This document shows, piece by piece, positions 55,733-59,613 of a stretch of 64,000 nucleotides of DNA. Position 1 is the first letter of the stretch. The number at the start of each line of letters is the position of its first letter. Position numbers and translations under genes: made by a program. Where the stretch lies: NCBI RefSeq assembly GCF_041583195.1, contig NZ_JBFHGL010000005.1:62001-126000 (forward strand), given 5' to 3'. The notes beneath the pieces are model-generated. The model saw only the letters and a list, made by a program, of their open reading frames with translations, did no database searches and was not told the origin of the DNA. Source of the stretch: Sulfurimonas sp. GTDB lineage: Bacteria > Campylobacterota > Campylobacteria > Campylobacterales > Sulfurimonadaceae.

Positions 55733-55809
55733 CCAAAGTCTGTAATTTCTGGAGCTCGTATTTTGAAAAAAATATGAAGCCCGAGAAATTACCATAGAGA
55801 GACTTTGGT
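55732..55809. repeat. 78-base imperfect inverted repeat (cruciform)
   Basis: Outer arms ACCAAAGTCT/AGACTTTGGT (10 bp), then GTAATTTCT/AGAAATTAC (9 bp), with a 7-base one-sided bulge (CATAGAG) on the right between them, and a further AT-rich inner stem. It overlaps the msrBA stop. It is far longer than ordinary terminators here and lacks a T-run. Structure resembles a cassette-type attC fold in size, but R-box motifs are absent. Role unknown; it may terminate msrBA. Confidence 0.55.
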
Positions 55810-55826
55810 TACACCCTAGGGTGTAA
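55809..55826. repeat. 18-bp perfect palindrome
   Basis: TTACACCCTAGGGTGTAA, perfectly self-complementary, just beyond the cruciform. The first bases GTTACACC also begin the typA hairpin at 57769. Possible operator or terminator; no function shown. Confidence 0.5.
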
Positions 55827-55852
55827 TCTTTGAAACTACTAGAGTTTTAGAA

Positions 55853-55921
55853 ATTTAACGTTTAAGTTGAGAAATAAATTGGCCGCAGGGTAATTTATTT
55901 CTCTCTAAAATTTTGTTAAAT
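55853..55921 (-). mobile_element. integron attC-like recombination site
   Basis: On the minus strand the site runs from R'' ATTTAAC (55921-55915) to R' GTTAAAT (55859-55853), which fit RYYYAAC and GTTRRRY and are perfect complements. Between them are 11- and 9-base spacers, a perfect 12-bp inner stem (AATTTATTTCTC and GAGAAATAAATT read on the plus strand, 55892-55903 and 55869-55880) and an 11-base terminal spacer. The 69-bp length is canonical. The stop codon of the preceding gene ends 1 base before R''. The integrase would cut between G and TT of R'. Confidence 0.75.
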
Positions 55922-55922
55922 G

Positions 55923-56840
55923 CTACACAAAAACAGAACTATACACATACCATCCACCAAGTGCAGCTAATATTAATGAAACGATTGCTCCCCCTATAGG
56001 AGACTCGCTAGTTAACATTGCACTGACTTCAGAAATCAGTTTTTTCGTTTCTATATCATTTAATCTATCTATACCACTTGGAATAGATTCTTTTAGCCTT
56101 TTTCGTTTTACAGTCGTTAGCATAGAAAGATCAAGATCAATATATGAAAATATAACTTCTATAGATTCTCCTTTGTGCAATGGAGTTTCACCACGTTTTA
56201 TTGCTAATAACTGCTTCTTTAATTTTGGAGCCTCCCATAGAAGTGCAAAGAAAACTAGTAGAAATAACATTGAAAATATACCAACAAGATATACTAAGAA
56301 TCCAACATTTCCGTTTATTGTTACTTGTTCTTCCGCTTTCATTGTTTTTAAGTCTCTTACATTTTTAATTCTTGCAGAAGAAATAAATTCTGGGTCTTTA
56401 ACATCTGAAAGGATTGAAAATACTATTAGATCTCCTGGATTTAATAGTTTAAACTCTAGTGAAATAGACTTTTCATCAATAACAATATTTTTATCTATAT
56501 TCTCAGGGCTACTTTTTACTATTTCAGCTTCAAGAATATTTCCCTCTTTTAGAGTAATTTTTGGATTAGAAATTAACTCATCAACAGTTACAGCTTTTCT
56601 TCCAGTATTCTTGATTTCAAAAGATGTTTTTGATAATGAATCAACCTGTCTTCCTCCATAAAGAATTTGTAATTTCTCTACATTACTTTTTTTCTCTACA
56701 ATTGTTGCAGTCCTATCTATAGTTAACGTAACTTCAGCAGAAGAATTCCATAAATCCCATGCAATTGGAATAATTACACCTAGTAAGGCTATAAATAATC
56801 CCATGATTGTTAATGAAATTCCATTATTTGTTTTTGCCAT
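55923..56840 (-). CDS. cassette-encoded membrane protein, function unknown
   Basis: 305 residues: an N-terminal helix (about 8-30), a beta-rich extracytoplasmic domain (about 35-175) with an Ig-like pattern FEIKNTGRKAVTVDE, a second helix (about 178-202), a basic cytoplasmic region (205-280) and a C-terminal helix (about 285-303). No family recognised. It fills a 1006-bp unit bounded by an attC-like site at its 3' end and an identical half site before its 5' end, as in an integron gene cassette. Its ribosome site is weak (GATGGACTAAAAAG). Cassette proteins are often of unknown, niche-specific function. Confidence 0.8.
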   Translation of the reverse strand: MAKTNNGISLTIMGLFIALLGVIIPIAWDLWNSSAEVTLTIDRTATIVEKKSNVEKLQILYGGRQVDSLSKTSFEIKNTGRKAVTVDELISNPKITLKEGNILEAEIVKSSPENIDKNIVIDEKSISLEFKLLNPGDLIVFSILSDVKDPEFISSARIKNVRDLKTMKAEEQVTINGNVGFLVYLVGIFSMLFLLVFFALLWEAPKLKKQLLAIKRGETPLHKGESIEVIFSYIDLDLSMLTTVKRKRLKESIPSGIDRLNDIETKKLISEVSAMLTSESPIGGAIVSLILAALGGWYVYSSVFV

Positions 56841-56858
56841 CTTTTTAGTCCATCTTTT

Positions 56859-56894
56859 ATTTAACGTTTAAGTTGAGAAATATTTGTTATATAC
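56859..56894 (-). mobile_element. collapsed attC-like half site
   Basis: The 24 bases at 56859-56882 are identical to 55853-55876, the R' half of the attC-like site (same GTTAAAT box and start of the inner stem). The left half is missing: only ATATAAC (56892-56886), close to RYYYAAC, stands about 34 bases before R'. Loss of the central hairpin by deletion would explain this. It marks the 5' border of the cassette. Confidence 0.6.
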
Positions 56895-57026
56895 TTAGTC
56901 TTCTTCTTGAGTTGGTTGCTCTAAATAAGACTCATCGCTTTCCATAGTTATTGTTAGTTCTGGTGCATCCACTTCTGGCGGGACTTCTTCTTGATTATCA
57001 TCTTCATTTTTATATTCTTCACTCAT
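56895..57026 (-). CDS. small acidic protein, 43 residues, in the accessory island
   Basis: ATG 57026 lies one base after the TGA of the 57028 gene and is preceded by GGAG with 8-base spacing, so it is coupled to that gene. The peptide starts MSEEYKNEDDNQEEVPPEV and is strongly acidic throughout (about 17 Asp/Glu, almost no basic residue), without predicted structure. It ends just before the collapsed attC. Too short for family assignment. It may be a partner or antidote-like companion of the adjacent membrane protein; that is inference. Confidence 0.6.
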   Translation of the reverse strand: MSEEYKNEDDNQEEVPPEVDAPELTITMESDESYLEQPTQEED

Positions 57027-57027
57027 A

Positions 57028-57543
57028 TCATTTACTCCATTCTAAAATTAATATTAACACAATTGATATAGATAATGTCCAAATAGTACCACTAATATCA
57101 GTATATGCTTTTTGCACAAAATCTAATTTCTTACTATAGTTTTCTTCAACTTTTTTTATTGCTTCAGAATACCTTTTACTTAGTCCAAGGTAGACTGTTT
57201 CTTTTGTATTTTTTTTAAAATACGATATTATCTTATCATCAGATGGCATTTTTACAATATCTGAAAGTTTAATAGCTCTAAAAACTAAACTCCATGAAGA
57301 TAAAAAGCAAATAAAAGTAATAGCAACAGATAGTATTATTAACCATTCTAATAAATTATTAGGTGGAATTATTCCTTCAATAATTTGTCTGATTAAAAAT
57401 AAATAAGCACCCAAAGCAAATGTAATAGCACTTAAATATTTTAATGCTTTTTCTTCAAGGCGTCTATACCTATTAACTTCTTCATCAAATTGGTTCTTTT
57501 GATATTCAAAAAGAAGTTTATATTTTTCACTATCAACACTCAT
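57028..57543 (-). CDS. three-helix membrane protein, SLATT-like layout
   Basis: 171 residues: a charged amphipathic N terminus (about 1-33, with NRYRRLEEKALKYL), two close membrane helices (about 34-55 and 66-88), a cytoplasmic middle (90-145) rich in Lys/Glu, and a C-terminal helix (about 150-168). This layout resembles SLATT-type and related pore-forming or effector proteins found in conflict systems, but I recognise no defining motif. Ribosome site AAAGGGACATTTAT and a TATAAT (57585-57590) lie upstream. It sits in the integron-like island with a coupled 43-residue acidic peptide. Confidence 0.7.
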   Translation of the reverse strand: MSVDSEKYKLLFEYQKNQFDEEVNRYRRLEEKALKYLSAITFALGAYLFLIRQIIEGIIPPNNLLEWLIILSVAITFICFLSSWSLVFRAIKLSDIVKMPSDDKIISYFKKNTKETVYLGLSKRYSEAIKKVEENYSKKLDFVQKAYTDISGTIWTLSISIVLILILEWSK

Positions 57544-57573
57544 ATAAATGTCCCTTTTAGTATATAATTATTT

Positions 57574-57580
57574 ATTCAAC
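57574..57580 (-). mobile_element. possible GTTRRRY core at the outer edge of the island
   Basis: Minus-strand GTTGAAT fits the R' box (GTTRRRY) and lies 31 bases before the 57028-57543 gene, where the leading border of a first cassette or an attI-type core would be. A TATAAT box (57585-57590) directly precedes it. No matching hairpin partner is convincing upstream. A single 7-base motif is weak evidence. Confidence 0.3.
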
Positions 57581-57584
57581 GAAC

Positions 57585-57590
57585 ATTATA
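57585..57590 (-). promoter_or_regulatory. -10 box driving the island genes
   Basis: Perfect TATAAT on the minus strand about 42 bases before ATG 57543. A start site near 57578 would lie at the GTTGAAT core, so the cassette genes seem to have their own promoter at the island edge. Confidence 0.45.
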
Positions 57591-57768
57591 TATAGATTAG
57601 CTTGATATTATATAAATATATGAACACTAAAAATGTTAATTTAAATTATGTTTTCATTGCAATGTAGCATGTTTTGGCCAAAAAGCATAAAATCTTTAAA
57701 ATACCAATGTACATTTTGTCATTTAATTTTTTAGAAGTGTATGATGAAAAAAGAGATGAGTTTAGTTA

Positions 57769-57792
57769 GTTACACCTCGAAAGAGGTGCAAC
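57769..57792 (-). terminator. typA terminator
   Basis: Minus strand GTTGCACCTC-TTTC-GAGGTGTAAC: a 10-bp stem with one G-T pair, 19 bases after the typA stop. No T-run follows. Begins with the same GTTACACC (plus strand) as the palindrome at 55809. Confidence 0.6.
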
Positions 57793-57810
57793 TAGTTTGT
57801 AGTATAAAAA

Positions 57811-59613
57811 CTATTTTCTAGAAGCGCGTTTACGCTCAGTTTCAGTAAGGAATTTTTTACGAATACGAATATTCTCAGGAGTAATCTCAAGAAGTTCATC
57901 ATCCTCGATCCACTCTAGTGCACGCTCTAAAGACATGTCACGTGGTGGAACAAGTTTAATAGCATCATCAGCACCAGATGAACGAACGTTCGATTGTTGC
58001 TTACCTTTGATCGGGTTAACAGTTAAGTCATTGCTTTTTGCGTGCTCACCGATAATCATACCCTCATAAACTTTTGTCTGAGGTTTTACATACATAACAC
58101 CACGTGCTTGTAAGTTAAAGATTGAGTATGCTACTGCTTCACCGTTTTCACTTGAAATTAAAGCACCATATTGGCGAGATTCAACTTCACCGCTGAATGG
58201 ACGGTATTCGATGAATGAGTGGTTCATTACACCTTCACCTTTAGTGTCAGTTAAGAACTGTCCACGGAAACCGATTAATGAACGAGCAGGGATCTCAAAC
58301 TCTATACGTTGGAAACCTTGACCCATTGGAACCATTGATTTCATCTCAGCTTTACGCTTACCAAGACGCTCGATAACTGTACCGCCTAGATCTTCAGGAA
58401 CGTCAATTACTAAGTGCTCAAACGGCTCACATTTAACGCCTTCGATCTCTTTTCTGATAACCTCTGGACGAGAAATACCAAACTCAAAACCTTCACGACG
58501 CATATTCTCAGCAAGAACAGTAATTTGAAGCTCACCACGACCTGAAACTTTAAATTTACCCTCACCAACAACTTCATATTTCATAGCAACGTTAGTGTTC
58601 ATCTCAGAATCAAGTCTGTCTTTGATCTTGTTAGATGTAACGTGTTTACCCTCTTGACCTGCAAGTGGAGAATCGTTAACTGAGAATACAACTGTTAAAG
58701 TTGGCTCTTCAATGTGCATTGGATCAAGTGCTACAGGATTAACAGGATCACAAATAGTGTCACCAACGTCAATAGTCTCTAAACCAGCCATAGCAACGAT
58801 ATCACCAGCTTCAGCCTCTTCAATCTCCATACGGTTAAGACCGTGGAAACCAATAAGCTTAGTGATACGACCTTTTACAAACTCACCATCAGCTTTTGCA
58901 AGAACAACATTATCACCTTTTTTGATAGTACCGTTGAAAATACGGCTAATACCGATCTTACCAACATAGTTATCATAGTCAAGTGTAAATACCTGTGCTT
59001 GAGCAGGGTTATCTTTACTACCTTCTGGTTCAGGGATATGCTCTAAAATAGTTTCGAAGATACATTGGAAATCTCCACCCTCTTCATCCATATCTAATTT
59101 TGCAATACCATCACGAGCAGCAGCATAGATAACAGGGAAGTCTTGTTGATCATCAGTTGCATCCATATCTGCAAAAAGGTCAAACATCTCATCAACAACA
59201 CGATCTGGATCAGCTGAAGGTTTATCTATCTTATTGATAACAACGATAGGTTTTTTACCCATCGATAACATTTTCTTAACAACGAATTTTGTTTGCGGCA
59301 TAACACCTTCGTATGCATCCACTAACACTAACACACCATCAACCATTTTTAATACACGCTCAACCTCACCACCAAAATCGGCGTGACCCGGAGTGTCAAT
59401 AATGTTGATCTTGTGATCTTTATAACGAATAGCAGTATTTTTTGAAAGAATCGTAATACCACGCTCTTTTTCTAAATCATTACTATCCATAGCACGTTCA
59501 TCATGTTGCTCATGATCACCAAATGTTCCAGACTGCTCTAACAGTCCATCAACCAATGTAGTTTTTCCATGGTCAACGTGTGCGATAACAGCAATATTTC
59601 TAATCTTTTGCAT
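57811..59613 (-). CDS. typA: translational GTPase TypA/BipA
   Basis: 600 residues, normal for TypA. G motifs: G1 [11 protein letters not shown]2 ERGITI, G3 [11 protein letters not shown]4 NKIDKPSAD. Domains II and III follow and the C terminus carries the TypA-specific region ([19 protein letters not shown]). TypA is an EF-G-like GTPase aiding ribosome assembly and stress growth. The upstream TATAAT and ribosome site CAGGAACTTTGC are clear. A hairpin follows the stop. Confidence 0.96.

Follow-up and report, generated by a model that had tools for sequence, protein, structure and literature searches.

When attC sites are found in a chromosome with no integrase beside them, it is not obvious whether they arrived as loose gene cassettes or are what remains of an integron. 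This question is raised by a locus between the housekeeping genes msrBA and typA in a 64,000-nucleotide stretch of the genome of Sulfurimonas sp., hereafter called the window. Complete integrons and integrase-free arrays (CALINs) occur about equally often, and how CALINs arise has been debated on indirect evidence, in part for want of good descriptions of attI sites beyond class 1 (PMC9024848). The proposed sources are intI loss, insertion off-target and rearrangement (PMC8618304; PMC9024848). A preliminary description of the window proposed an isolated, excisable pair of cassettes. The features that bear on this proposal are collected in Table 1.

Table 1. Features of the insert between msrBA and typA, in window coordinates.
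Feature	Position	Strand	Basis
Whole insert, from the msrBA end (55732) to the typA stop at 57811	55733-57810	.	Comparison with G013
Hairpin TTACACCCTAGGGTGTAA, msrBA side	55809-55826	.	Sequence
Intact 69-bp attC, terminates second cassette	55853-55921	-	Pattern, fold, held-out model R2
Second cassette gene, 305-aa membrane-type protein	55923-56840	-	ORF; remote homologue behind attI elsewhere
Collapsed attC of first cassette, R'' box and L'-R' half, 34 nt	56859-56892	-	Match to deletion product; weak model matches
43-aa acidic ORF, second ORF of first cassette	56895-57026	-	ORF
First cassette gene, 171-aa membrane-type protein (phrog_23273)	57028-57543	-	ORF; profile match
attI with -10-like box TATAAT (57590-57585)	57566-57645	-	Model R3
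intI 5' leader and first four codons (57741-57752, ATGATGAAAAAA)	57706-57752	+	87% identity (47 nt) with the start of the intact G022 intI
Hairpin adjoining typA, attI side	57769-57792	.	Sequence; G013 empty site with one such hairpin

The site that terminates the second cassette had been described as a canonical 69-bp attC, and its anatomy agrees. The R'' and R' boxes (ATTTAAC and GTTAAAT) are perfectly complementary and fit the pattern RYYYAAC ... GTTRRRY, the inner stem is a perfect 12 bp, and 1 base separates the site from the stop codon of the 305-aa ORF. Its bottom (recombining) strand, which is the plus strand of the window, folds at -15 kcal/mol, compared with -3.8 +/- 1.4 for shuffled sequences (z -7.9), and leaves two T residues unpaired in the L arm. 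When the window was searched for complementary R boxes with an inner stem of 10 bp or longer, this site alone was found, and 200 simulated sequences of the same length (64 kb, order-1 Markov) contained no match. A covariance model built from six sites of the same genome (R1; window, C2 and C6) matched many sites beside intI in relatives, with matches in 94 of the 135 genomes of the genus. We also used a held-out model, R2, which was built solely from 44 attC sites of relatives, each no more than about 20 kb away from intI. In this model, 17 of 23 stem pairs show two-sided changes among the relatives, and the covariation score was reached by none of 500 shuffles. The window site was the top R2 match among the window, the other arrays of its genome and those of the closest relative, G013, scoring 83.2 bits (E 9.8e-16; the calibration of the models was short, which makes their E-values rough). 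Judged by these sequence criteria, it is a genuine attC, and its recombination by IntI is predicted.

The preliminary description had noted that 24 bp of the attC half-site recur 1006 bp away. This repeat is present and exact (56859-56882), and it proved to be the 3' half of a second, collapsed attC, so that the locus holds two cassettes. Read on the minus strand from 56892 to 56859, the collapsed site is ATATAACAAATATTTCTCAACTTAAACGTTAAAT. Removal of 35 nt between CAAA(T) repeats from a normal 69-bp site (that of C2, C6 or G013) yields the 34-nt form, with differences confined to point changes. Because this deletion reproduces the sequence, the 34-nt site is best read as an attC that lacks its hairpin. 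No stable fold was found for it, and the covariance models gave weak matches. A 35-nt loss of this kind is what slipped-strand deletion at a palindrome would be expected to leave. In two other arrays, L034 (3811-3840) and L025 (9364-9395), attC has decayed in a different way: short R''-L'' stubs (ATAACAAATYAGAGG) stand directly before the next gene and fuse adjacent cassettes.

The interval between msrBA and typA measures 2,078 bp in the window. In G013 (TypA 98%, MsrBA 90%), only 37 bp separate the two genes, and this empty site holds one hairpin; similar hairpins flank the window insert, one at each end. In ten other relatives that have the msrBA-typA arrangement the interval measures 46-417 bp, and neither attI nor attC was present in those sequences that were read. 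The insert is therefore derived in its own lineage, and the proposed insertion between msrBA and typA holds when the junction is compared among relatives. Vertical inheritance of the locus was dropped, since the junction is empty there. Between msrBA and the array lies a further, 76-nt hairpin (55733-55808; -19 kcal/mol, z -8.1). Tested as a repeat, this hairpin proved to be single-copy in the genome; it has no attC end boxes.

The other end of the insert is more informative about descent. On the minus strand, cassette 1 is preceded by ...TATATAATGTTCGTTGAATAAATAATT, a stretch that adjoins intI in relatives. In 18 of 18 intI-linked cases, the distance between AATAGTT and a fixed IntI codon is 257-295 nt, and the sequences diverge immediately past GTT, which fits a crossover at G|TT. 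In the window the crossover reads AATA(A)|TT (57568/57567), the conserved G being mutated to A. A sequence-only model made from the 18 intI-linked attI sites of relatives (R3) matched the minus strand of the window at 57568-57645 with an E-value of 1.3e-10 (6.2e-10 in a genome-wide search). The TATAAT-like box is kept in the intI-linked sites; a generic promoter scan gave no excess, and the box is regarded here as a putative promoter element. By this comparison, the array starts with an attI site. The attI pattern was not found in IMG/VR. After the last attC, a conserved right end (GTTAARTTTCTAAANCTCTTAT) was seen in the window, in C6 and in G013 only; it could be a displaced right arm of attI, a reading for which three cases make a small sample.

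On the far side of attI, the leader is colinear with those of G022 and G008 up to the start of intI, and the match runs on over the first four intI codons before it ends beside the typA hairpin. This intI stub amounts to only about 12 nt of coding sequence and was identified via the colinear leader. The claim that no integrase lies nearby can be extended to the genome as assembled, in which other attC sites are present: no match to the integron-integrase family TIGR02249 in the 22-contig assembly attained the cut-off, the best (4.6e-16) being Xer-like, although a gap between contigs might still hide an intI. Other tyrosine recombinases are present. IntI above this cut-off was found in 52 of the 135 genus genomes, and the N-terminal domain PF13495 was tried as an intI marker and proved uninformative. 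Broken intI genes, with internal stops or reduced to fragments, were observed in G016, G050, G111, G128, G129 and other genomes, consistent with frequent integrase loss in Sulfurimonas.

Since attI, the intI leader and the first four intI codons are present, the locus is better described as an integron without its integrase gene than as an isolated pair of cassettes. Very probably, it represents an integron of the type found in Sulfurimonas that has degraded, in which attI, leader and cassettes were kept and intI was lost but for four codons. This reading draws on the anatomy of the locus, its homology to intact integrons, the absence of intI and the empty site in relatives. The order along the locus would be intI stub, leader, attI, cassette 1, collapsed attC, cassette 2 and intact attC. 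As to past IntI action, promoter use and the order of events, we infer the following course. IntI would once have inserted circular cassettes at attI, by recombination of a folded bottom-strand attC with double-stranded attI at G|TT, thereby placing the cassettes beside the promoter inside attI. Later, intI would have been lost except for its first four codons. Slipped-strand deletion at the CAAA(T) repeats would then have removed 35 nt from the hairpin of the first attC, and the crossover G of attI would have changed to A after the loss of intI. The two cassettes would now be frozen, because no IntI is encoded in the genome as assembled, and would probably still be read from the attI promoter. 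The earlier notion of an excisable cassette is thus too simple: one attC has no hairpin, the attI crossover is mutated and no IntI is encoded, so that the intact attC could be mobilised only by IntI supplied in trans.

The cassette contents were examined for signs of their origin. Cassette 1 (57543-56859) carries the 171-aa and 43-aa ORFs, and cassette 2 (56858-55853) carries the 305-aa ORF. The 171-aa protein matched phrog_23273 (3.5e-34), and small Acinetobacter plasmids encode homologues that are 40% identical to it; among 399 order genomes it was found in no further one, and it was absent from phage records and IMG/VR. On one plasmid (NZ_CP043954.1, 3216-3885), the homologue is likewise followed by a tiny charged ORF, of 51 aa as compared to 43 aa in the window, the two being dissimilar in sequence. 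Remote homologues of the 305-aa protein occurred in 4 of the 399 order genomes; searches of genome contigs and of plasmids yielded no relative. In L220, a locus from another family of the order, a remote homologue is the first gene behind an attI of the same type as in the window (E 4.5e-12) and attC-like sites come after it, which supports the 305-aa gene as a cassette gene. The L220 stretch (1366-2890) comprises an attI without intI on its left, the homologue, an attC-like site, a GNAT gene and a broken attC, and the orphan-attI arrangement thus occurs beyond Sulfurimonas. Neither the 305-aa nor the 171-aa protein matched a functional family in Pfam or NCBIfam; all that can be said is that both cassette products are accessory membrane proteins.

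The window array has counterparts in its own genome and across the genus. Six attI hits were found in the genome, with attC downstream on C2, C4, C5 (the window) and C6, and none of them with intI; outside the window, four attC sites stand in a row behind attI on C2 (L025) and one each on C4 and C6 (L026). Allowing up to 3 mismatches, the attI core occurred 95 times in 64 of the 135 genus genomes and 0 times in a reversed control. Eighteen of these sites lie 236-282 bp from intI, 75 are without intI, and 2, at contig ends, are undecided. Among 40 orphan attI loci inspected, 19 had attC within about 4 kb downstream, all in the expected orientation. No common replacement gene occupies the intI position of the orphan sites. 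Named records with the exact attI core were mostly Sulfurimonas metagenome-assembled genomes, and IntI was found in the fetched stretch of 2 of 8. Nothing on orphan attI sites was found in the literature searched, which took in few subscription journals.

These numbers bear on whether intI was lost in place. It is also possible, though somewhat doubtful, that the array arrived already without intI, as an attI-headed unit carried by duplication, transformation or another route. Such arrival would be in keeping with several attI-headed arrays in one genome and with 75 of 95 attI-core sites lacking intI. It would also suit the left ends of the orphan sites, where homology to intact leaders stopped 77-99 nt from the crossover in 17 of 45 cases and at 235-281 nt, which is the intI start, in 19 of 45, with few between. 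These sites were, however, selected for missing intI, and some represent one locus in two species; conservation of attI and its promoter, erosion or a discrete unit could each produce the two groups of left ends. A G048 array that occupies another chromosomal location has an intI stub similar to the one in the window (ATGATGAAAAAAGRGATGA), which is at most a hint that intI-less units move, and the shared stub is very short. Against arrival without intI, the C2-orthologous locus of G013 retains both ends of intI, its N-terminal codons and its last 24 residues (the latter 91.7% identical), and has lost what lay between, so that loss in place does occur. Moreover, the C2 locus of the window's own genome keeps only 76 nt, which means that short leaders can arise by erosion.

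A broader form of this idea is that attI-headed, intI-less arrays spread through Sulfurimonas as units of their own, copied or moved after the loss of intI, perhaps by IntI acting in trans; we consider this unlikely. That the spreading unit would be a discrete attI-promoter module with cassettes, whose left boundary falls either where intI starts or some 77-99 nt from the crossover, seems equally improbable. If true, such a spreading module would give one genome several attI entry points.

A different route would be off-target insertion, in which two loose cassettes entered a secondary (attG-type) site by IntI in trans at a place that was never an integron. CALINs are known to arise by insertion of this kind (PMC8618304), and it would account for attC without intI in a lineage-specific insert; as in such insertions, the window cassettes lie outside an integron with no adjoining intI. 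However, attG sites need a short core only, whereas cassette 1 is preceded by some 80 bp of attI and by the intI leader up to the start codons of intI, and off-target insertion of cassettes brings neither attI nor an intI leader. This origin is thus very improbable. There is virtually no chance that the attC-like hairpin is a chance palindrome, a terminator or a REP-type repeat with no link to integrons, although hairpins are common near gene ends and another long one lies at 55733-55808, because the R2 match (E 1e-15), the lack of any pattern match in simulated sequences, the sequence identity shared with attC sites behind intI in relatives and the covariation of stem pairs all speak against it, as does an Rfam scan that gave just chance snoRNA matches below the gathering score; the terminator and REP identities were accordingly dropped.

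The degraded integron of the window belongs to a known kind. It shares with CALINs the possession of attC-bearing cassettes without an integrase, and it differs in having kept attI and the intI leader, an indication that it was once an integron. By default, IntegronFinder 2 calls a CALIN from at least two attC sites without intI (PMC9024848); the window, with one full and one collapsed attC, falls below this default if the full site alone is counted, and the C2 array of the same genome, with four, is a CALIN by this measure. In Xanthomonas, the integrons at ilvD have a deleted or frameshifted intI and a retained array, and about half of the genomes have CALINs elsewhere too (PMC12444791). The window resembles them in having lost its integrase and kept its array, but the Xanthomonas platform stands at one ancestral place, whereas the Sulfurimonas genome has several attI-headed arrays at different places. 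Integrons in Campylobacterota were already known (PMC8618304), and an In0 and a CALIN have been listed for S. autotrophica (PMC10295459). Compared with complete chromosomal integrons of Sulfurimonas, the window has the same attI, leader and attC family, with intI reduced to four codons. As far as tested, the attI of the genus, as defined by comparison, the frequent attI-headed arrays without intI and the collapsed attC appear to be new.

A genus-wide attI could serve as a marker, in that arrays with attI would descend from integrons and those without it may be off-target insertions. With many such arrays in related genomes, the origin of integrase-free cassette arrays becomes directly addressable. 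The window suggests that an integron decays in stages, leaving an intI stub, an attC whose hairpin was deleted between short repeats and a mutated attI crossover. It is unusual for one genome to have up to several attI entry points, the majority of them without intI, and this arrangement raises the question of whether orphan attI sites receive cassettes from an IntI encoded elsewhere.

Two further observations concern the cargo of related arrays. In the intI-less C6 array of the same genome (L026, G000:C6, 9670-13150), an attI-like leader and a DUF6367 gene are followed by attC, then by the anti-phage system Olokun (OloA 2.3e-56, OloB 8.6e-137) and then by the array end; the defence system appears to ride there as cassette cargo. 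In L129 (7173-7355) and in the first cassettes of L178, L189, L190, L198, L205 and L214, a GC-rich hairpin (e.g. GTTCATCCTCGCCGTTGGCGAGGATGAAC) stands in place of a gene. These hairpins start right after the attI crossover and are possibly cassettes that consist of a hairpin without an ORF.
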